Below are positions 4,511 through 22,107 of a DNA stretch of 23,976 nt, piece after piece. The position numbers were made by a program, and so were the translations under genes. The DNA is from a bacterium (GTDB taxonomy: Bacteria; CSSED10-310; JAJRTK01), in assembly GCA_024278345.1 (NCBI GenBank), contig JAJRTK010000168.1:1-23976 (forward strand), given 5' to 3'. Position 1 is the first letter of the stretch; every line of letters begins with the position of its first letter. The notes under the pieces were generated by a model. It saw nothing but the letters and a program-made list of their open reading frames with translations. It made no database searches and had not been told where the DNA came from.

Positions 4511-4592
4511 ATTTTCTTGTGTTGCGTTCCGCTACCATCAGGCGCCGTCCGACGCCTGCTGTTCGCCACGTTCCCCCCCGGCCGCGGCCATC
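4511..4592 (+). repeat. Dispersed intergenic hairpin repeat, copy B
   Basis: Core GTTGCGTTCCGCTACCATC at 4521-4539. A perfect 6-bp hairpin follows: CAGGCG at 4539-4544, 8-base loop, CGCCTG at 4553-4558. Compared with copy E (CGGGCG/CGCCCG) both arms changed together, keeping the pairing. The tail TGCTGTTCGCC is shared with copy F. It lies between the zinc-ribbon kinase gene and the PilB-like gene. The 3' boundary is approximate. Confidence 0.72.
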
Positions 4593-6769: not shown

Positions 6770-6892
6770 GCCTCCACAAACCGGGCTCCGGTTTTCGGTG
6801 GTGCTCCGGTTTTTTTTGTGATGGCTCAAGAGGGGTGACAAGGGGCGAGTAGCGGGTGCCGGAGGGCGCCCGATGGGAGCGGAACGCAACCT
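6770..6892 (-). repeat. Dispersed intergenic hairpin repeat, copy C
   Basis: Reads on the minus strand. Core GTTGCGTTCCGCTCCCATC lies at about 6872-6890, followed by a hairpin (6853-6858 with 6867-6872, one G-T wobble on the plus strand) and CGCTACTCGCCCC shared with copy E. Beyond it an A-run (T8 on the plus strand near 6810) and a CCGG-rich segment resemble the flanks of copies D and E, so the full unit may be about 120 bases. It fills much of the 276-base gap between the two divergent kinase genes. Confidence 0.72.
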
Positions 6893-12511: not shown

Positions 12512-13489
12512 TTGAGCCGATTTCCAGAAGCCGATCTTCGGAAGGTGAAGACGATCCCCCACGGAGAACGGCCAAGACATGTCTCCCGGGAAGAGTTCGC
12601 GCGACCCGTGGCTGCCGATGCCACTCTCTCCGAGTTCCTGGACGCCTTGCCAAGATTCCTCAAGGCTCAAGAGCTGGCGGTTCTGGTGGAAGCCATCTGT
12701 GAGGCCCGCCGCAAGGGCGCTCCCTTTGTTATCGCCATGGGGGCCCATCTGCTCAAGGTCGGGCTCGCGCCACTCTTGATCGATCTCATGGAAAAGGGCT
12801 TCCTCACGGCGCTGGCCCTCAACGGAGCCGGAGTCATCCACGACGTGGAGATCGCCCTTTTCGGGCGAACGTCCGAAGATGTCGCCAGTTCCCTGGACGA
12901 CGGGACCTTTGGTTTTTCCGCGGAAACCGCGGAGGCTGTCAACGGCGCCGTCCTCCAAGGCCACCGGAAAAACCTGGGCTACGGCGAAGCCATGGGCTTT
13001 TTCCTAGACCGTCTGAAGAATTGCCCCTACCGCCATCTCTCGCTGCTCCACGCCGCCCACCGGCTGGGACTTCCCGTTACGGTGCATGTCGCTCTGGGAA
13101 CGGACATCGTTCACCAGCATCCCAGCGCTGACGGCCAGGCCATCGGAGCCACCTCCATGCGGGATTTCCGGATTCTGTGCGAGGTCCTCCGTCACCTCTC
13201 CGGCGGCGTCTGGCTGAATCTCGGATCCGCGGTCGTCCTCCCCGAGGTCTTTCTCAAGGCCCTTTCAGTGGCCAGGAACCTCTACGGTCCCATCCAGGAT
13301 TTCACCACCGCAAACCTGGACATGCTCCAACACTACCGGCCATCGCAAAACGTCGTCCGTCGCCCAACCCGCCTGGGATCGAGCCGCGGCATCAGCATCA
13401 CCGGACACCACGAGATCCTGGTCCCCCTCCTCTGCGCCGCTATGAAATCGCAATGGGCCAAGGAAGAGGCAGAAAAAGCTTCTTCATAG
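12512..13489 (+). CDS. Deoxyhypusine-synthase-like protein of the heptose cluster
   Basis: 325 residues, starting at TTG 12512, one base after the gmhA stop. GGAGG at 12500-12504 sits 7 bases before it, so this rare start is well supported and translation is probably coupled to gmhA. The segment FVIAMGAHLLKVGLAPL (72-88) followed by NGAGVIHDVEIALFG (104-118) resembles the NAD-binding core of deoxyhypusine synthases (TSNLISSG..L and GGVEEDL equivalents). Later motifs include GTDIVHQHP (196-204), GSAVVLPE (238-245) and ITGHHEI (296-302). I do not see the GARPDEAVSWGK lysine motif of true deoxyhypusine synthase, so that reaction is unlikely. Bacteria generally lack eIF5A, and position next to hldE-gmhA suggests a sugar- or LPS-linked role. 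Fold similarity is inference from motif spacing. Confidence 0.6.
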   Translation: MSRFPEADLRKVKTIPHGERPRHVSREEFARPVAADATLSEFLDALPRFLKAQELAVLVEAICEARRKGAPFVIAMGAHLLKVGLAPLLIDLMEKGFLTALALNGAGVIHDVEIALFGRTSEDVASSLDDGTFGFSAETAEAVNGAVLQGHRKNLGYGEAMGFFLDRLKNCPYRHLSLLHAAHRLGLPVTVHVALGTDIVHQHPSADGQAIGATSMRDFRILCEVLRHLSGGVWLNLGSAVVLPEVFLKALSVARNLYGPIQDFTTANLDMLQHYRPSQNVVRRPTRLGSSRGISITGHHEILVPLLCAAMKSQWAKEEAEKASS

Positions 13490-13629: not shown

Positions 13630-13668
13630 TAGGGCGTGGTTCCCGATAAACTTTTTCTTTTCTTCGTG
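13630..13668 (+). repeat. Second dispersed repeat, copy 1
   Basis: TAGGGCGTGGTTCCCGATAA followed by a pyrimidine tract runs directly into hairpin repeat copy D. The same motif recurs at 21251-21289 with two differences in the first 16 bases and a similar pyrimidine tract after it. It could be the 5' part of a longer version of the hairpin repeat. Confidence 0.5.
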
Positions 13669-13773
13669 TTGCATTCCGCTCCCGTCGGCGTCCGTCCGGC
13701 CACCGCCGTCCGCCCATCATCGCCCTTCTCCCCTGACAGCCACCCGCAAAAAAAAAAAACCAAGGGAAGGGCG
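13650..13773 (+). repeat. Dispersed intergenic hairpin repeat, copy D
   Basis: Core GTTGCATTCCGCTCCCGTC (13668-13686) overlaps a hairpin GTCGG (13684-13688), 7-base loop, CCGGC (13696-13700), with one G-T wobble compared with copy A. Further on, CGCCCTTCTCCC at 13721-13732 can pair with GGGAAGGGCG at 13764-13773 around a loop holding a 12-base A-run, giving a larger second stem. It lies in the leader region ahead of the PP2C operon. Confidence 0.7.
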
Positions 13774-13900: not shown

Positions 13901-13929
13901 TTGACATAAAGGTTGCATGGACCTATATA
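13901..13929 (+). promoter_or_regulatory. Sigma70-type promoter of the PP2C-NrtR operon
   Basis: TTGACA at 13901-13906, exactly 17 bases, then TATATA at 13924-13929. The -35 is perfect and the -10 one base off TATAAT. The region is AT-rich against GC-rich surroundings. Transcription would start near 13936, giving a leader of about 78 bases to the PP2C ATG at 14014. It is the strongest promoter visible in the window. Confidence 0.8.
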
Positions 13930-13950
13930 AGGGTTACGCTAACCTTATAT
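13925..13950. promoter_or_regulatory. Palindromic operator overlapping the -10 (candidate NrtR site)
   Basis: ATATAAGGGTTA (13925-13936), CGC, TAACCTTATAT (13940-13950). The arms are an 11-bp inverted repeat with one extra G in the left arm. It covers the -10 hexamer and the expected start point, where a bound repressor would block RNA polymerase. NrtR proteins bind palindromes, and an NrtR-family gene ends this operon, so autoregulation is the simplest guess. The assignment to NrtR is inference. Confidence 0.6.
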
Positions 13951-14013
13951 TTGTGAGTTACGCGCTTCCTCAGGTAGCCAAAGCGAAGGCCAGTGTCACA
14001 ATGGAGACAAGAG

Positions 14014-14808
14014 ATGGAAAGCTTGATCCACGAAAGAGTAAGCGTCTCCTTGGGCTCGATCTCGGGCCGCGAGCACCGGCGAACTCGCCGGAACAACCAG
14101 GATGGCGTCTCCGTGTCGGTTTCGGACGGGCTCATCGTGGCGGCGGTGACGGATGGCTGCTCATCAGGGAGGTTTTCCGAGGTGGGAGCTCTTCTGGGAG
14201 CCCGGTGGCTGAGCCGCTGGATTCCGGAAGGTTGGGATCCGGCGATTCCTCTTCCCCAGTTGATCGCCTGGATCGAGGCCGGGTTGCTCCAGTTCCTGGA
14301 AACCCTTGCATCTGCTCTTTCCCCGGACCTGGAATCGGCTTGGGAGATTGTGAAAGAGTATCTGCTCTTCACCTGGATGGTGGCGGTTATCGATCCTGAA
14401 CGGAGCGTCATCTTCGGGATCGGCGATGGCGTGTGGTCGGTGAACGGCCAGGTGACCCGCCTTGACGCTGGGGTCTCCAATGCGCCGCCGTATCTGGCCT
14501 ACCGCCTTGTCCCGGATCGCGTTGAAGAAATGGAGGCGGCGGATCTCAGGACAGCCGTTCACGTGGCGATGCCTACGCCATTCGTCCGGAGCCTCATCGT
14601 GGGAAGTGACGGGTTGAACGATCTTCTTGACGGCGCCAAGAGAACCTTGAAGGATGGCTCGCTCCAGGGCGGTCTGGAGCAGTTCGAAAGAGATCCGCGG
14701 TATGCCAGAAACCCATCGCTCCTCCAGAAACGGCTGGCGGTCATCGGGGACTTGAATGGCCGCCTTAGGGACGACACCACCATGGTCTTCATCCGTGGGG
14801 AGGGTTGA
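14014..14808 (+). CDS. PP2C-family (PPM) Ser/Thr phosphatase
   Basis: 264 residues from ATG 14014. PPM metal-site motifs appear in order: NNQDG (28-31, usually NEDA/NQD), VTDGCSSG (46-52, usually DGMGG), GIGDGVWSVNG (136-145), GSDGLND (198-204) and RDDTTMVF (252-259). The acidic metal ligands D47, D199 and D254 are present, so activity is plausible. It is a free-standing soluble enzyme expected to reverse phosphorylation by the kinase encoded 3 bases downstream. I chose ATG 14014 because GGAG lies 7 bases ahead; GTG 13993 in frame would add seven residues with a poorer SD. First gene after the strong promoter at 13901. PP2C, kinase and vWA proteins are known to travel together in TerY-P-type triads. 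Confidence 0.85.
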   Translation: MESLIHERVSVSLGSISGREHRRTRRNNQDGVSVSVSDGLIVAAVTDGCSSGRFSEVGALLGARWLSRWIPEGWDPAIPLPQLIAWIEAGLLQFLETLASALSPDLESAWEIVKEYLLFTWMVAVIDPERSVIFGIGDGVWSVNGQVTRLDAGVSNAPPYLAYRLVPDRVEEMEAADLRTAVHVAMPTPFVRSLIVGSDGLNDLLDGAKRTLKDGSLQGGLEQFERDPRYARNPSLLQKRLAVIGDLNGRLRDDTTMVFIRGEG

Positions 14809-14811
14809 CCG

Positions 14812-15867
14812 ATGCAAGTTTTTTCCGCTGGCCACGGCCTGAAACTGAATGACAAGAACCTGCTTGGGATCGGCGGCGAGGCCCGGGTTTACCGTTGGCG
14901 AAATCTAGCGGTGAAGATTCTTCACCCCATCGATCCCAAGCTCGCGGGGGCCGAAAAGTCGCGAGCCCGGAAGATGCGGGCGGCGAAGATCGAGAAGATT
15001 CGGGATTTTCCTCGGAACCTTCCACCACAAGTGGTGGCGCCCATGGATCTCGTGACGGATCGAGCCGGCCATCCGCTGGGGTATACGATGCCCATGGTCC
15101 CAGGGGCGGAGGATCTCTTCCTTCTCTCCCGCCGGCGCTGGCGAGAGGGAGTCTTCTCCAACGCCACGGTGACAGAGCTCTTCCGGGAGATCCACGGCGT
15201 CGTGGGCAAGATCCACTCCAGCGGCGCCGTCATCGGAGATCTCAACGACGCCAACATTCTCTTCGCCGGAACCCGGCCCTGGTTTATCGACGCGGATTCC
15301 ATGCAGTTCGGGAGGCATCTCTGCACGGTGGCGCACGAGAGGTTCCTCGACCCGATCCTCTACGGCGCCGACCTGACCCGCGGCCCCGTTTTCACCTGGG
15401 ACACCGACTGGTATTCCTTTTCGGTGCTCCTCTTTTCGAGCCTGCTCTACGTCCATCCCTACGGCGGAGTCCACAAGGTCCACAAGACCCTTCTCCGGCG
15501 GGCCGAGGCCCGGCACAGCATTCTTCGGCCCGACGTCAACTACCCCAAGGCGGCCACGCCCTTCTCCATTCTGCCCGATGACCTGCTCCACTGGTTCGAA
15601 GGCCTCTTCGACAAAAAACAGCGAGACCTCTTTCCGGCCGGCCTTCTGGAGATCGCCTGGAATTCCTGCTCATGCGGGGCGGAACATGCTCGGGCCGCCT
15701 GTCCTCTCTGTGGCGCGGGCCGGAAACCGGTGGTCCGGGAAGCTGTCCGCTTCCACGGAAAGTGCCGGGAAACGGTGATCTTCCGGTGCCGTGGCCGGAT
15801 TCTGGAGGCCGTGGTCCAGGGGAACCTGAAGATCCTTTATCAGGAAGGGGATTCGGTCCGGCGGTAA
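14812..15867 (+). CDS. Protein-kinase-like protein with C-terminal zinc ribbon (TerY-P type)
   Basis: 351 residues up to a TAA at 15865-15867. The kinase fold is divergent but complete: GIGGEARVYR (19-28), Lys35, catalytic loop IGDLNDANILF (141-151) replacing HRDLKPEN, and FIDADSMQF (158-166) replacing DFG. Catalytic Asp143, Asn148 and metal Asp160/162 are kept. A zinc ribbon follows (C286, C288, C297, C300). This resembles the kinases paired with PP2C and TerY-like vWA proteins. ATG 14812 is 3 bases after the PP2C stop with GGGAGGG about 7 bases ahead, so translation is coupled. After the zinc ribbon a new beta-rich domain starts, and the TAA cuts it; the same frame stays open to 16632, so the protein may be truncated (see findings). 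Confidence 0.82.
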   Translation: MQVFSAGHGLKLNDKNLLGIGGEARVYRWRNLAVKILHPIDPKLAGAEKSRARKMRAAKIEKIRDFPRNLPPQVVAPMDLVTDRAGHPLGYTMPMVPGAEDLFLLSRRRWREGVFSNATVTELFREIHGVVGKIHSSGAVIGDLNDANILFAGTRPWFIDADSMQFGRHLCTVAHERFLDPILYGADLTRGPVFTWDTDWYSFSVLLFSSLLYVHPYGGVHKVHKTLLRRAEARHSILRPDVNYPKAATPFSILPDDLLHWFEGLFDKKQRDLFPAGLLEIAWNSCSCGAEHARAACPLCGAGRKPVVREAVRFHGKCRETVIFRCRGRILEAVVQGNLKILYQEGDSVRR

Positions 15868-15879
15868 GATGGTACCCTG

Positions 15880-16632
15880 GTGTTGGAGCAGCGGCTCCAG
15901 CCGGGGATGAGATTTGCCATCTCGGGGCCGGCCACATGGGTTGCCCTCGGGTGTCAACTGGTCAAAGTGGAGGGGGAACGCCCCACCGGGCGGCTTCAGA
16001 CGGGACTCTTCGGCACGGAGCCCAGCTTCGACGCCAACTCCCGGGGCTGCTTCCACCTGGACCACGAGTGGCTGGTGGACGGGGCTGGCGGGACGCGGGT
16101 AGGCAAGGTTCTGGAGGGTCAAACCTGGTTCCGCGTGGGAGAAAAACTGGGATTCGGTTTTTACCGGGCGGGTCTCCTGACCTTTTACTTCTTGTTCCGC
16201 CCGGGCCGGGCGGGCCTTCTCGATATTGCTCTGCCGCCCATGGACGGGCGTCTTCTGTCGGTCTCGGCGGTCTTCGACGAGGAGCATGTCCTCTTCTCCA
16301 CGCTGGTCGAGAAAGGGGGCCGGGAGAGGGCATCCCTTTTCCTTGTGGGGAGTGATGGTGGGCTCGTGGCCAGTCTTTCGGGCAGCCCGGAAGAGAGCGA
16401 ATGTCTTTCCAGCGTGGAGGGGAAGGCCCTTCTGGGAGGACGGATCCTGTGTGCCGCCGAGCAGGGACTACTGTCGCTCCACGTGGACCGGAAGAGCAAA
16501 ACGATAGGAGAGGGAACTTTCTTCACCGACACCGAGCCTTTTGTCCAGGGGGGGGCCAGGCTGCTTCCCGGTCCCGGGGGCTCGGTCTACGTTGTCACTG
16601 AGCGCCGGGTCTCTCAATTGAGCCTGGCATGA
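15880..16632 (+). CDS. Beta-rich protein, probable severed C-terminus of the upstream kinase
   Basis: 250 residues from GTG 15880; ATG 15907 is an alternative. Neither start has a good SD. The sequence is rich in short beta strands and Gly turns and could be a small propeller or beta-sandwich; I recognise no named family. It is in the same reading frame as the kinase, with 12 bases between the kinase TAA and this GTG, and the open frame continues right up to that TAA. The reading across it, EGDSVRR-stop-DGTLVLEQRLQPG, flows like one domain. I therefore consider it the C-terminal part of a 605-residue kinase split by a nonsense codon, or a product made by readthrough or reinitiation. A genuine separate gene is possible. 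Confidence 0.55.
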   Translation: MLEQRLQPGMRFAISGPATWVALGCQLVKVEGERPTGRLQTGLFGTEPSFDANSRGCFHLDHEWLVDGAGGTRVGKVLEGQTWFRVGEKLGFGFYRAGLLTFYFLFRPGRAGLLDIALPPMDGRLLSVSAVFDEEHVLFSTLVEKGGRERASLFLVGSDGGLVASLSGSPEESECLSSVEGKALLGGRILCAAEQGLLSLHVDRKSKTIGEGTFFTDTEPFVQGGARLLPGPGGSVYVVTERRVSQLSLA

Positions 16633-16713
16633 AAGGAGTAAAAAACGAGCGACGAAGCCGCCGCTCCCCGGATTCCGGTGGCGCTTCGACCTCCGGCTGT
16701 CCGCTGGCGATTG

Positions 16714-16766
16714 GGGCAAGAGGGGCGAGTAGCGGGCGTCGGATGGCGCCCGATGCGAGCGGAAGT
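16714..16766 (-). repeat. Dispersed intergenic hairpin repeat, copy E
   Basis: Reads on the minus strand, against the operon. Perfect 6-bp stem CGGGCG (16733-16738) with CGCCCG (16747-16752) and an 8-base loop, the family core TTCCGCTCGCATC beside it, and CGCTACTCGCCCCT shared with copy C. It occupies the 207-base gap between the beta-rich ORF and the nicotinamidase-like gene, so it interrupts the operon. Homologous CCGG-rich sequence may extend the unit back to about 16645. Confidence 0.72.
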
Positions 16767-16794
16767 CAGCAATTGATGAAGAGCGATCCGAGTT

Positions 16795-16823
16795 TTGACA
16801 ACGGTCACAATTTTTTCCGAAAT
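16795..16823 (+). promoter_or_regulatory. Possible internal promoter before the nicotinamidase-like gene
   Basis: TTGACA at 16795-16800 is a perfect -35, but the best -10 at 17-19 bases (GAAATA/AAATAA) is poor. It could give separate expression to the nicotinamidase, vWA and NrtR genes behind repeat copy E. No palindrome like that at 13925 is present here. Confidence 0.3.
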
Positions 16824-16839
16824 AAGGAAGGAGAAAGCC

Positions 16840-17811
16840 ATGAAGATGCCATTCCCCAGGTTTTATGAGCCGGCCAAGGTCGGCGAGATCTACCTTGAAC
16901 GGAACGCCCATGTTTCCGACGTTGCCGAGGAATTCCGTGAAAGGGGAGGCGTACGGCCGGCGGGGCGGGACAAGTTCCGTATCGCGGCGTTCGGGATCGA
17001 TTGCCAGGTCGATTTCTGCATTCCCGGCGGAAGCCTCTTCGTTCCTGGCGCCGTGGAAGACACCCGCCGAAGCATCGAGTGGATCTACGGGAATCTTGAC
17101 AAGATCACCGGCCTCCACTTTTCCATGGACACCCACCGCGTCTTCCAGATTTTCCATCCTGGATGGTGGATTGACGATCAGGGGTGCCACCCGAAACCCA
17201 TGACCATCATTCGCCATGATGACGTAAAAACAGGGAAGTGGAAGCCGGTGAGCCATCCCAGGGAGTGCCTGGAATACTGCCGGAAACTGGAACAGACCGG
17301 CAAGTACATCCTGACCATCTGGCCTTACCACACGCTTCTTGGAGGGCTGGGTCACGCGCTGGTTCCCGCTCTTATGGAGGCCGCCATTTTCCATGCAGTT
17401 TCCCGAATGACCCAGACCCACTTCGAGACCAAGGGAACCCACGCCATGACCGAGAATTACTCGGTCCTCTCCCCCGAGGTCCAGGAGCTGGGCGGGCAAG
17501 TGGTGGGCGGCTTCAACGCTCCCTTCTTCAAACTGCTCATGGAGTACGACCGGATCTATATTTTCGGGCAGGCCAAGAGCCACTGCGTGCTCTCCACAAT
17601 CCGGGACATCCAGACGCGGGTCCGGGCGACGGACGCCGGGCTGGCCGAAAAGGTCTGGATCTTGGAGGACGCCATGAGCTCCGTTCCGGCTCCTCCGTTG
17701 GATCCACTGCCGCCGGAGCTTGATTTCCCGCGCATTGCCGACGCGGCCATGGACGATTTTCGCCGCTCGGGGATGCGGATCGTCAAGACCTCCGATCCCG
17801 TGGACTTCTAG
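16840..17811 (+). CDS. Nicotinamidase-like cysteine hydrolase (isochorismatase superfamily)
   Basis: 323 residues, over 100 longer than typical nicotinamidases. All catalytic and metal features can be placed: Asp54 (GIDCQVDF), metal site D97-x-H99 and H106 (MDTHR...FHPGWW), WPYHTLLGG at 161-169, catalytic Lys198 (ETKGTH, followed by YS), and nucleophile Cys249 (GQAKSHCVLST). That is the D-K-C triad of PncA enzymes. It would deamidate nicotinamide, or a related amide, in NAD salvage; the extra N-terminal and central segments leave the substrate open. ATG 16840 has AAGGAAGGAG 8 bases ahead; an in-frame TTG at 16795 is disfavoured because it overlaps the putative -35. It is followed by the vWA gene after 60 bases and NrtR, which fits an NAD-responsive operon. 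Confidence 0.85.
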   Translation: MKMPFPRFYEPAKVGEIYLERNAHVSDVAEEFRERGGVRPAGRDKFRIAAFGIDCQVDFCIPGGSLFVPGAVEDTRRSIEWIYGNLDKITGLHFSMDTHRVFQIFHPGWWIDDQGCHPKPMTIIRHDDVKTGKWKPVSHPRECLEYCRKLEQTGKYILTIWPYHTLLGGLGHALVPALMEAAIFHAVSRMTQTHFETKGTHAMTENYSVLSPEVQELGGQVVGGFNAPFFKLLMEYDRIYIFGQAKSHCVLSTIRDIQTRVRATDAGLAEKVWILEDAMSSVPAPPLDPLPPELDFPRIADAAMDDFRRSGMRIVKTSDPVDF

Positions 17812-17871
17812 GGCCGCGGGCCACCTCCAACGGGGAAGACAACCTTCCGAAACATCACGGGAGACAGCGCC

Positions 17872-18657
17872 ATGAGCAGCAGACAACTCACAAACCTTTT
17901 TTCTGGAGCGGTCCAGGACGGCATTTTGAGCCAGGGCTCCTCGTCCATGCTCACCGGTTCTCTGGGCCCCGTAGTCATTGCCGGCGCGGCCGGGATGGCC
18001 GCCGAAGATATACCTTCTTCCGACGTGACCTTGATCACCGTCGTCATCGACAAGTCCTCCAGCATCGGTTATTCCGGCCTGGAGAATGCCGTTCGAAGCG
18101 GCCAACAGATGCTGGTGGATGCGTTTGCCGCCAGCCGCGAGGTGGACGACATCCTCATGGCCCTCTGGACCTTCAACGACAAACAGAAAGTGGTTCATTC
18201 CTATCTGCCGGTCTCTGACGCACGAAAACTCGACAGGCGGAACTACCGCACGTCGGGTGCCACCGCTCTCTACGACACTTGGTGCGACGCCTTGGCCGCC
18301 AACGTGGCCTATGCCCAGAAGCTCCGGGACAGCGGGACACCATGCCGGAGTGTGGTGGTCATCATCACTGATGGCGAGGATGTCTGTTCCAAGCGGAGAT
18401 CTTCGGACTGCGCGAAGCTGAGCCGCGATCTCCTGGCGTCGGAACAGTTCGTCCTGGCCTTCGTCGGCGTGGGGCGGGAAGCGGACTTCCGCGCCGTCGC
18501 CCGCGGCATGGGCCTGCCCGAAGGCTCCATCCTGGTCCGGAAAAAAATCACGCCCTCGGCTATGCGCCAGGTCTTCCAAATGGTGAGCCAGTCCGCCATC
18601 CGCGCCAGCCAGGGTCTTATCCAGCCAGGCCCCAACGCCGGATTCTTCCAGCCATGA
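17872..18657 (+). CDS. von Willebrand factor A (TerY-like) domain protein
   Basis: 261 residues. The vWA domain spans about 52-245 with an intact MIDAS metal site: DKSSS (60-64, DxSxS), Thr131 in TSGATALYD, and Asp167 in ITDGED. No signal peptide or transmembrane helix is evident, so it should be cytoplasmic. Such proteins usually act as metal-dependent scaffolds, and TerY-like vWA proteins are recurrent partners of PP2C phosphatases and zinc-ribbon kinases like those upstream. The C-terminus is short, Gln/Pro/Gly-rich. ATG 17872 has a modest GGGAGA upstream. The stop overlaps the NrtR start by ATGA, so both are co-translated. No TerD-type gene is present, so a tellurite-resistance role is not supported. 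Confidence 0.85.
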   Translation: MSSRQLTNLFSGAVQDGILSQGSSSMLTGSLGPVVIAGAAGMAAEDIPSSDVTLITVVIDKSSSIGYSGLENAVRSGQQMLVDAFAASREVDDILMALWTFNDKQKVVHSYLPVSDARKLDRRNYRTSGATALYDTWCDALAANVAYAQKLRDSGTPCRSVVVIITDGEDVCSKRRSSDCAKLSRDLLASEQFVLAFVGVGREADFRAVARGMGLPEGSILVRKKITPSAMRQVFQMVSQSAIRASQGLIQPGPNAGFFQP

Positions 18658-19415
18658 GCAAGAGAAAATCAACCCATTGTGGTGACTCCCAGGAGTCGGC
18701 GGCGCTTCGGGACTTCCGGGCCGCCGACTATCCTCGGCCGGCTGTAACCGTGGACCTGGTTGTTTTCACGATTCTCGACACCGACCTCAAGTTGCTGCTC
18801 ATCCGGCGCCGCGAGCACCCTTTCAGGGGAAAGTGGGCGCTTCCCGGTGGATTCGTCCGCGTGGGCGACGAAGTCGTGGACCAAGGAGAAAACCTGGAGG
18901 ATGCGGCGGAGCGGGAGCTGGCCGAGGAAACGGGGCTTCCACGGGGTTCCGTCTTCCTGGAGCAGCTCTACACCTTCGGCCGCGCCGGGCGTGACCCGAG
19001 GATGCGGGTCATCACCGTGGCCTACTACGCCCTGGTGCGGCCGACCCTGGCACCATTCGTCCACGCCGGAAGCGATGCGTCCGACGCACGGTGGGCGTCG
19101 ATCCAAGAGCTCGAGCCCGCGGCCCTGGCTTTCGACCACGAGCTGATCCTCCGAAAGGCGCTGGAACGGATCCGAGGTAAGATCGACTACTCGGCCATCG
19201 CCTTCGAGCTCGTGCCTGAGACCTTCAGCATCACCGAGCTCCGGGCAGTCCACGAAGTCATCAAGGGAGAAAGCTACGACCCGGCCAATTTCCGGCGGCG
19301 GTTCAAAAGAATGCTCGCGGACGGGATCCTGGAACCCGCCCCTGGGAAGAGGGCGACCGGGAGGCGGCCTGCCGCCGTCTACCGGTTCAAGGACCGGAGA
19401 ACATCTGGGGACTGA
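18654..19415 (+). CDS. nrtR: NrtR-family regulator: Nudix domain plus winged helix
   Basis: 253 residues. Residues 30-160 form a Nudix domain with ALPGGFVR (62-69) and RELAEETGL (87-95). Residues 180-247 are the typical NrtR winged helix (FSITELRAVHEVIKG, then NFRRRFKRML and GRRPAAVYRF). NrtR represses NAD biosynthesis and salvage genes and is released by ADP-ribose. Oddly, the spacing between the Gly and Glu of the Nudix box is about 7 residues longer than in G-x5-E, while REL..EE is intact, so hydrolysis is not excluded. It overlaps the vWA stop by 4 bases. The palindrome at 13925 is a natural target, making it a likely autoregulator of the operon. Function of the family is established; this target is inferred. 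Confidence 0.88.
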   Translation: MSKRKSTHCGDSQESAALRDFRAADYPRPAVTVDLVVFTILDTDLKLLLIRRREHPFRGKWALPGGFVRVGDEVVDQGENLEDAAERELAEETGLPRGSVFLEQLYTFGRAGRDPRMRVITVAYYALVRPTLAPFVHAGSDASDARWASIQELEPAALAFDHELILRKALERIRGKIDYSAIAFELVPETFSITELRAVHEVIKGESYDPANFRRRFKRMLADGILEPAPGKRATGRRPAAVYRFKDRRTSGD

Positions 19416-22022: not shown

Positions 22023-22061
22023 CTACGGGGAATCCTCGAATTGGCGGCCACTCAAAGGCGA

Positions 22062-22107
22062 ACAGCAGGAGCGGACGCGAGTGATGGGAGCGGAACGCAA
22101 CAAAAAA
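22062..22107 (-). repeat. Dispersed intergenic hairpin repeat, copy F
   Basis: Reads on the minus strand: T-rich lead, GTTGCGTTCCGCTCCCATC, then a tail CTGCTGTTCGCC shared with copy B. The hairpin arms are degraded in this copy. It lies in the 119-base gap between ccsA and the small membrane protein gene, in the direction of transcription. Confidence 0.7.

Follow-up and report, generated by a model that had tools for sequence, protein, structure and literature searches.

The DNA analysed here, 23,976 nucleotides of contig JAJRTK010000168.1 (the window; assembly GCA_024278345.1, GTDB lineage Bacteria; CSSED10-310; JAJRTK01), carries between 13.9 and 19.4 kb a run of plus-strand genes for a PP2C-type phosphatase, a Ser/Thr kinase, a beta-rich segment, a nicotinamidase-like cysteine hydrolase (NIC), a VWA protein and an NrtR-type Nudix regulator. 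It is probably a nicotinamide adenine dinucleotide (NAD) salvage operon under NrtR control that carries its own TerY-P/YegI-like Ser/Thr phosphorylation triad. Gene order, linkage to NAD genes, intact catalytic motifs and recurrent promoter palindromes are directly observed. The features of the locus are listed below.

13901-13929, plus strand: putative promoter read from the sequence, with TTGACA (13901-13906), a 17-bp spacer and TATATA (13924-13929)
13925-13950, no strand: inverted repeat ATATAAGGgTTA-CGC-TAACCTTATAT with near-perfect 11-bp arms, overlapping the promoter -10; candidate NrtR operator
14014-14808, plus strand: PP2C-type phosphatase (Pfam PP2C_2, 50.3 bits); the longest open reading frame (ORF) starts at GTG 13993
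14812-15867, plus strand: YegI/TerY-P-like Ser/Thr kinase domain and C-terminal zinc ribbon (CxC...CPxC), ending at an in-frame TAA
15868-16632, plus strand: beta-rich domain, which all relatives encode as the C-terminal part of the kinase gene; the first start listed is GTG 15880
16633-16839, no strand: 207-bp gap between the beta-rich domain and NIC, containing one copy of a dispersed repeat (16721-16764) and, at 16795, a TTGACA that may belong to an internal promoter
16840-17811, plus strand: NIC, 323 aa, identified by family profile and invariant catalytic residues
17872-18657, plus strand: stand-alone VWA protein (Pfam VWA, 28.3 bits) with an intact metal ion-dependent adhesion site (MIDAS; DxSxS...T...D)
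18654-19415, plus strand: NrtR-type regulator with a Nudix domain and NrtR winged helix; its start overlaps the VWA stop (ATGA)

Conservation of the cluster and its proteins

Five protein profiles were run over the loci read for gene order, which comprise the window, a genome of the same phylum (G003), a Myxococcales metagenome-assembled genome (MAG; L009) and genomes of a second phylum, probably Myxococcota. The order PP2C-kinase/beta-NIC-VWA and its orientation are constant in all 23 loci besides the window itself, and hold across two phyla even though the kinases at the extremes are about 35% identical. The first-pass annotation had proposed that NAD salvage is wired into the triad; the genome-neighbourhood survey bears out the genomic side of this, with clusters conserved across the two phyla together with the nicotinamidase and usually with NrtR, and the contrary case, that nicotinamidase and NrtR never adjoin the kinase, PP2C or VWA gene in other genomes, is excluded. 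The VWA subfamily is found in 90 of 195 second-phylum genomes, 83 of them in one family, and as a single match in 88 of the 90; in G203 one gene is in two pieces, and G110 has an additional weak match. Across 386 genomes from throughout the domain, strong matches to the VWA and kinase subfamilies occur solely in genomes with the whole cluster, and NIC stands alone in 21 others. The confinement of both subfamilies to cluster genomes marks the module as dedicated and, in this sample, limited to two phyla.

The PP2C, VWA, Nudix and NrtR winged-helix domains score above Pfam cut-offs, and the kinase and NIC are identified by family profiles rather than by single-sequence Pfam searches, which confirms all the domains named on the plus strand by the first-pass annotation. 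In the kinase family profile, the P-loop, the Lys, GDxND, DxDS and the four zinc-ribbon Cys are all invariant, and the profile matches solved kinases. Its alignment to E. coli YegI reaches into the zinc ribbon (hhalign E=2.4e-21 over 275 columns; for comparison, another kinase encoded in the window, of ordinary type, gives E=4e-13). The phosphatase has an intact metal site, with its Asp residues invariant in homologues, and matches E. coli PphC (hhalign E=8.5e-9); judging from its Shine-Dalgarno sequence, translation likely starts at ATG 14014. The MIDAS residues of the VWA protein are invariant across homologues. The proposed likeness to a TerY-P-type triad thus holds at the profile level for the kinase and PP2C, and is weak for the VWA protein (45.9%, E=2e-4, in a comparison with E. 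coli YegL).

The beta-rich ORF, previously taken for a gene of its own, is actually the C-terminal half of the kinase gene. In relatives, the kinase and the beta-rich part share an uninterrupted reading frame or give directly abutting matches, and a separate gene at 15880-16632 is rejected because the two are fused in all relatives and split here by a single in-frame TAA. The junction codon (15865-15867) is TAA in the window (VRR*DGT) and GAA or GAG (Glu, ..R-E-D..) in all 16 relatives compared, with no change of frame. Identity of the beta-rich half to its nearest relatives remains at 44-56%, so that the stop, seen in this single MAG, may be a sequencing error, a recent nonsense mutation or a gene split. 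The predicted structure of the domain is all-beta at low confidence (pLDDT 55); a WD40/TolB-type propeller was considered, but its matches are weak and not significant (best E=3e-3, TM 0.3) and it is not relied on.

The description of the locus as six tightly spaced or overlapping ORFs behind a single strong promoter needs revision. The ancestral genes are five and the 207-bp gap breaks the tight spacing, although the VWA and NrtR genes do overlap by ATGA. The TTGACA-17 bp-TATATA promoter is present, but a strict promoter scan does not report it and a second TTGACA precedes NIC; at the position equivalent to this gap, several relatives have an operator-like site. The repeat in the gap belongs to a dispersed family of about 45-68 bp, 79-91% identical, with copies at 256-323, 4512-4567, 6841-6890, 13658-13725, 16721-16764 and 22057-22105. 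They are mostly intergenic; one is within the operon, ahead of NIC, and another sits 5' of the promoter.

An unlikely alternative is that the locus is a TerY-P-type stress or anti-phage triad that acquired NAD genes since its response uses up or senses NAD; the kinase would then have its targets elsewhere, and NIC and NrtR would merely refill the NAD pool. The YegI- and PphC-like character of the kinase and phosphatase would suit such a role: TerY-P triads accompany restriction-type systems, TerY-P-like modules are anti-phage active (PMC11090510), and a kinase-zinc ribbon-beta-rich protein stands beside PP2C and VWA in GAP1-N2 conflict systems (PMC7159879). However, PADLOC gives no significant match to the kinase, PP2C, NIC or VWA protein, its sole significant match among the window proteins being to the Nudix part of the regulator, and no nuclease, TerD, GTPase or other effector is present among the annotated genes of the window. 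The single VWA copy and the order fixed through one family are unlike patchy defence islands, and the kinase and VWA subfamilies were not found outside cluster genomes among the 386. As the first-pass annotation had noted, the locus is not a standard ter system: between 10.3 and 21.2 kb of the window, the annotated ORFs include no TerD or TerC gene and no other ter/tellurite or restriction gene.

Linkage to NAD genes and candidate operators

In NIC, the catalytic Asp-Lys-Cys (D54, K198, C249) and the metal-site residues (D97, H99, H164) are invariant in 20 homologues. The family profile matches M. tuberculosis PncA (E=3.6e-5), yeast Pnc1 (E=1e-3) and one further nicotinamidase, and its alignment to PncA spans the Asp, His and Cys regions. 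An AlphaFold model of NIC built from two sequences was unusable (pLDDT 36). Canonical PncA exceeds its cut-off in just 3 of 24 cluster genomes and was not detected in the window's own genome, which is 88% complete. In most of these genomes NIC is therefore the strongest candidate for a nicotinamidase. In a tree of 42 NIC proteins, a split with strong support divides the cluster NICs into a window type (I) and a Myxococcaceae type (II), both of which lie nearer to stand-alone NICs, and a single clade of all cluster NICs is rejected (p-AU 1.8e-6; 29 rows, with the long-branch row removed). The filling of the NIC slot by two lineages, through replacement or independent recruitment, suggests that the slot is functional.

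Nicotinate phosphoribosyltransferase (NAPRTase) and an NrtR-family match are both present in 24 of 24 cluster genomes. In 18 of the 24, a full-length NrtR gene is located no more than 20 kb from the cluster, and two of the genomes that have none at this distance carry the cluster on short contigs. The full-length regulator gene adjoins the cluster in 13 cases: it is directly downstream of VWA in the window, L047, L054 and L064, and directly upstream of PP2C in L016, L055, L056, L058, L059, L060, L062, L065 and L066. A divergent NAPRTase (TIGR01513, 109 bits) is encoded immediately 5' of PP2C in six loci. Canonical pncB-prs-pncA precedes PP2C in L054, and in L062 Prs and NadE genes lie upstream of NrtR-NIC-PP2C, with PncB about 3 kb past the NadE neighbour of NrtR on the same contig. 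In genome G110, the regulator adjoins pncA and pncB instead of the cluster. Outside the cluster, NIC adjoins NAPRTase (L011, L112) and NrtR (L116). The divergent NAPRTases form a family with no Pfam match and a score below the NCBIfam TIGR01513 cut-off (L047 14017-15459, minus strand; L011 10614-12056, minus strand; L048-L052).

It is very improbable that the triad and the NAD genes are chance neighbours, or housekeeping genes that are co-transcribed with no direct functional tie. Such a view could point out that neither physical interaction nor phosphorylation has been demonstrated, and that in the window the gap with its possible second promoter parts NIC from the kinase gene. It would have to account for an order fixed over two phyla despite the divergence of the kinases, for two separate lineages in the NIC slot, and for the linkage of NrtR upstream as well as downstream.

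Relatives have TTGAC and inverted repeats at the position equivalent to the window promoter, and by analogy with them the palindrome at 13925-13950 may serve as an operator. Its chance expectation is 0 in 100 shuffles, it is the single such site in the 6.06-Mb genome with up to three mismatches allowed, and no shared palindrome was seen in that genome's own pncB promoter. In the second phylum, GTGT-N7-GACACTA directly follows the TTGAC -35 box ahead of nrtR and PP2C. The 9.9 kb of cluster promoter regions scanned contain 17 occurrences of this pattern, against 6 in 436 kb elsewhere; eight whole genomes contain 33 matches, against 16 for the reversed control pattern. About 15 of the 33 are at the cluster by position, some between the beta-rich domain and NIC. 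Six sites in 6 genomes stand ahead of a gene pair, SPFH and then NAD-kinase-like, and five matches at four places in 3 genomes lie ahead of ADP-ribosylglycohydrolases (Pfam 152-200 bits). Since this enzyme releases ADP-ribose, the latter sites fit an ADP-ribose-sensing regulator. In type-I loci with NAPRTase, GAGTC-TTGAC-GACTC is centred on the -35 box instead; it occurs once per genome, except for one extra one-mismatch site in G204.

The SPFH (Band 7) gene and the divergent NAD-kinase-like gene stand behind the palindrome in L067, L072, L074, L076, L078 and L079. The NAD-kinase-like protein has no Pfam match and is related to human NADK2 by profile (E=1e-8); these proteins may represent an unannotated NAD kinase family. 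An Imm11 immunity-like gene (L072 4198-4974) lies on the opposite strand about 1.1 kb from this operon.

Proposed working of the operon and alternatives

From this gene context we infer repression by NrtR, the ligand that relieves it, the nicotinamidase activity, the role of the VWA protein and the target of phosphorylation. When NAD+ is consumed, ADP-ribose or a related product would build up and NrtR would leave the palindromes of the operon promoter. NIC would then be made, together with the adjoining NAPRTase in many relatives, and nicotinamide would return to NAD via the Preiss-Handler route. The co-expressed kinase and PP2C would set how far a salvage component is phosphorylated, or else the VWA protein in the role of a MIDAS-dependent adaptor, and so tune the salvage flux faster than transcription could. 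The likeliest kinase substrates are NIC, NAPRTase or the VWA protein, without discrimination among them. Only tentatively do we extend this to a switch in which the kinase, phosphatase and VWA protein control NAD salvage directly, by reversibly phosphorylating the nicotinamidase or NAPRTase, with ADP-ribose-responsive transcription through NrtR as the other of two layers of NAD-pool control.

Both domains of the regulator score above Pfam gathering scores (NUDIX 74.3 bits, NrtR_WHD 54.9 bits), and the Nudix-box residues are retained with a 7-residue insert. Several observations nevertheless weigh against an NrtR-controlled salvage operon with its own triad. Every functional step is drawn from gene context, and nothing ties the kinase to any substrate. 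NIC is under the nicotinamidase cut-offs, with 11.9 bits each against PF00857 (27 bits) and NF008623 (174 bits) and a Pfam E of 0.25, and the presence of both NIC and PncA in some genomes means that NIC may act on another amide. The regulator does not reach the cut-off of the NCBIfam NrtR equivalog NF050029 (172 against 400 bits), and its closest solved structure is AraR (223 bits), ahead of Shewanella NrtR (164 bits). The window palindrome has no second site in its genome, which leaves the regulon documented in relatives alone. Finally, an in-frame stop lies within a kinase gene that is otherwise under clear constraint.

The AraR match, the sub-threshold scores of NIC and its motif GQAKSHC, which differs from the canonical PncA motif, could be accommodated by an AraR-like regulator that senses a sugar or sugar nucleotide and a NIC that hydrolyses a different amide, in a pathway resembling NAD salvage. 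We regard this as quite unlikely: members of the regulator family neighbour pncA and pncB in G110 and, in G123, the genes for NadE, Prs and PncB, recurrent sites stand ahead of NAD-kinase-like and ADP-ribosylglycohydrolase genes, and NIC adjoins NAPRTase in several lineages. The closest solved relative is an arabinose regulator, but the regulon argues for an NAD metabolite as the ligand.

Just upstream of the cluster, at 12512-13489, is a gene with no Pfam match, which we take to resemble deoxyhypusine synthase. Two other genomes have homologues (48% and 34%), at L012 3033-3980 and L013 14944-16062, each no more than about 3 kb from a stand-alone NIC gene; none was near the cluster or NIC in the remaining loci checked.

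Comparison with known systems

The TerY-P triad, as summarised in PMC11090510 after Anantharaman 2012, consists of a TerY-like VWA protein, a PP2C and a Ser/Thr kinase with a C-terminal zinc ribbon, and that account presents such triads as proposed phosphorylation switches. The present cluster has in common with it the three components, the zinc ribbon after the kinase and the intact MIDAS. It differs in lacking ter and restriction genes, in the extra beta-rich domain of the kinase, in the nicotinamidase-like gene between kinase and VWA, and in the linkage to NrtR and further NAD genes. Since ter linkage is missing and the VWA relationship is weak, we class it as a variant of kinase-PP2C-VWA triads and not as a TerY-P member. 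The YegI-PphC(YegK)-YegL locus of E. coli likewise places three genes together, with a related kinase (including the zinc-ribbon region) and PP2C, but the VWA similarity is weak (E=2e-4), and the E. coli locus is without NAD genes. YegI is reported as membrane-bound; it autophosphorylates and is dephosphorylated by PphC, according to the account of Rajagopalan and Dworkin given in PMC13232886, and no inducing condition is known for YegI and PphC (PMC13232886).

The actinobacterial GAP1-N2 GTPase systems (PMC7159879) resemble the cluster in the kinase-zinc ribbon-beta-rich layout and the PP2C and VWA neighbours, a likeness at the level of the described domain layout; at their core are GTPase, GAP1 and FNIII proteins, and no such protein is seen here. 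NrtR is described as a Nudix and winged-helix repressor of NAD genes, and MsNrtR as released by ADP-ribose, in PMC6800001. With known NrtR regulons, as far as the accessible text of PMC6800001 and PMC6363681 describes them, the regulator shares its repressor architecture, and probably palindromic operators and NAD synthesis or salvage targets. It differs in the sequence of the candidate operators and in a largely intact Nudix box, and that text mentions no kinase, PP2C or VWA targets. NIC aligns with PncA and yeast Pnc1 in the catalytic Asp-Lys-Cys and metal-site residues and likewise has NAPRTase neighbours, but it is longer (about 320 aa against about 190), with an N-terminal extension, and falls below the family cut-offs.

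Every component is thus of a known kind. We found no description of the triad combined with NIC and NrtR or NAD genes in the open-access literature, which omits most subscription journals, and the combination is apparently undescribed. Kinase-PP2C-VWA triads accompany tellurite, restriction and conflict genes, and their inputs and substrates are largely unknown. Here a triad is tied to one defined metabolic pathway, for which ADP-ribose is a candidate ligand and the operon itself supplies candidate substrates; this makes triad function directly testable. If the proposed working is true, it would also be, as far as we know, the first case of bacterial NAD salvage under a phosphorylation control of its own.

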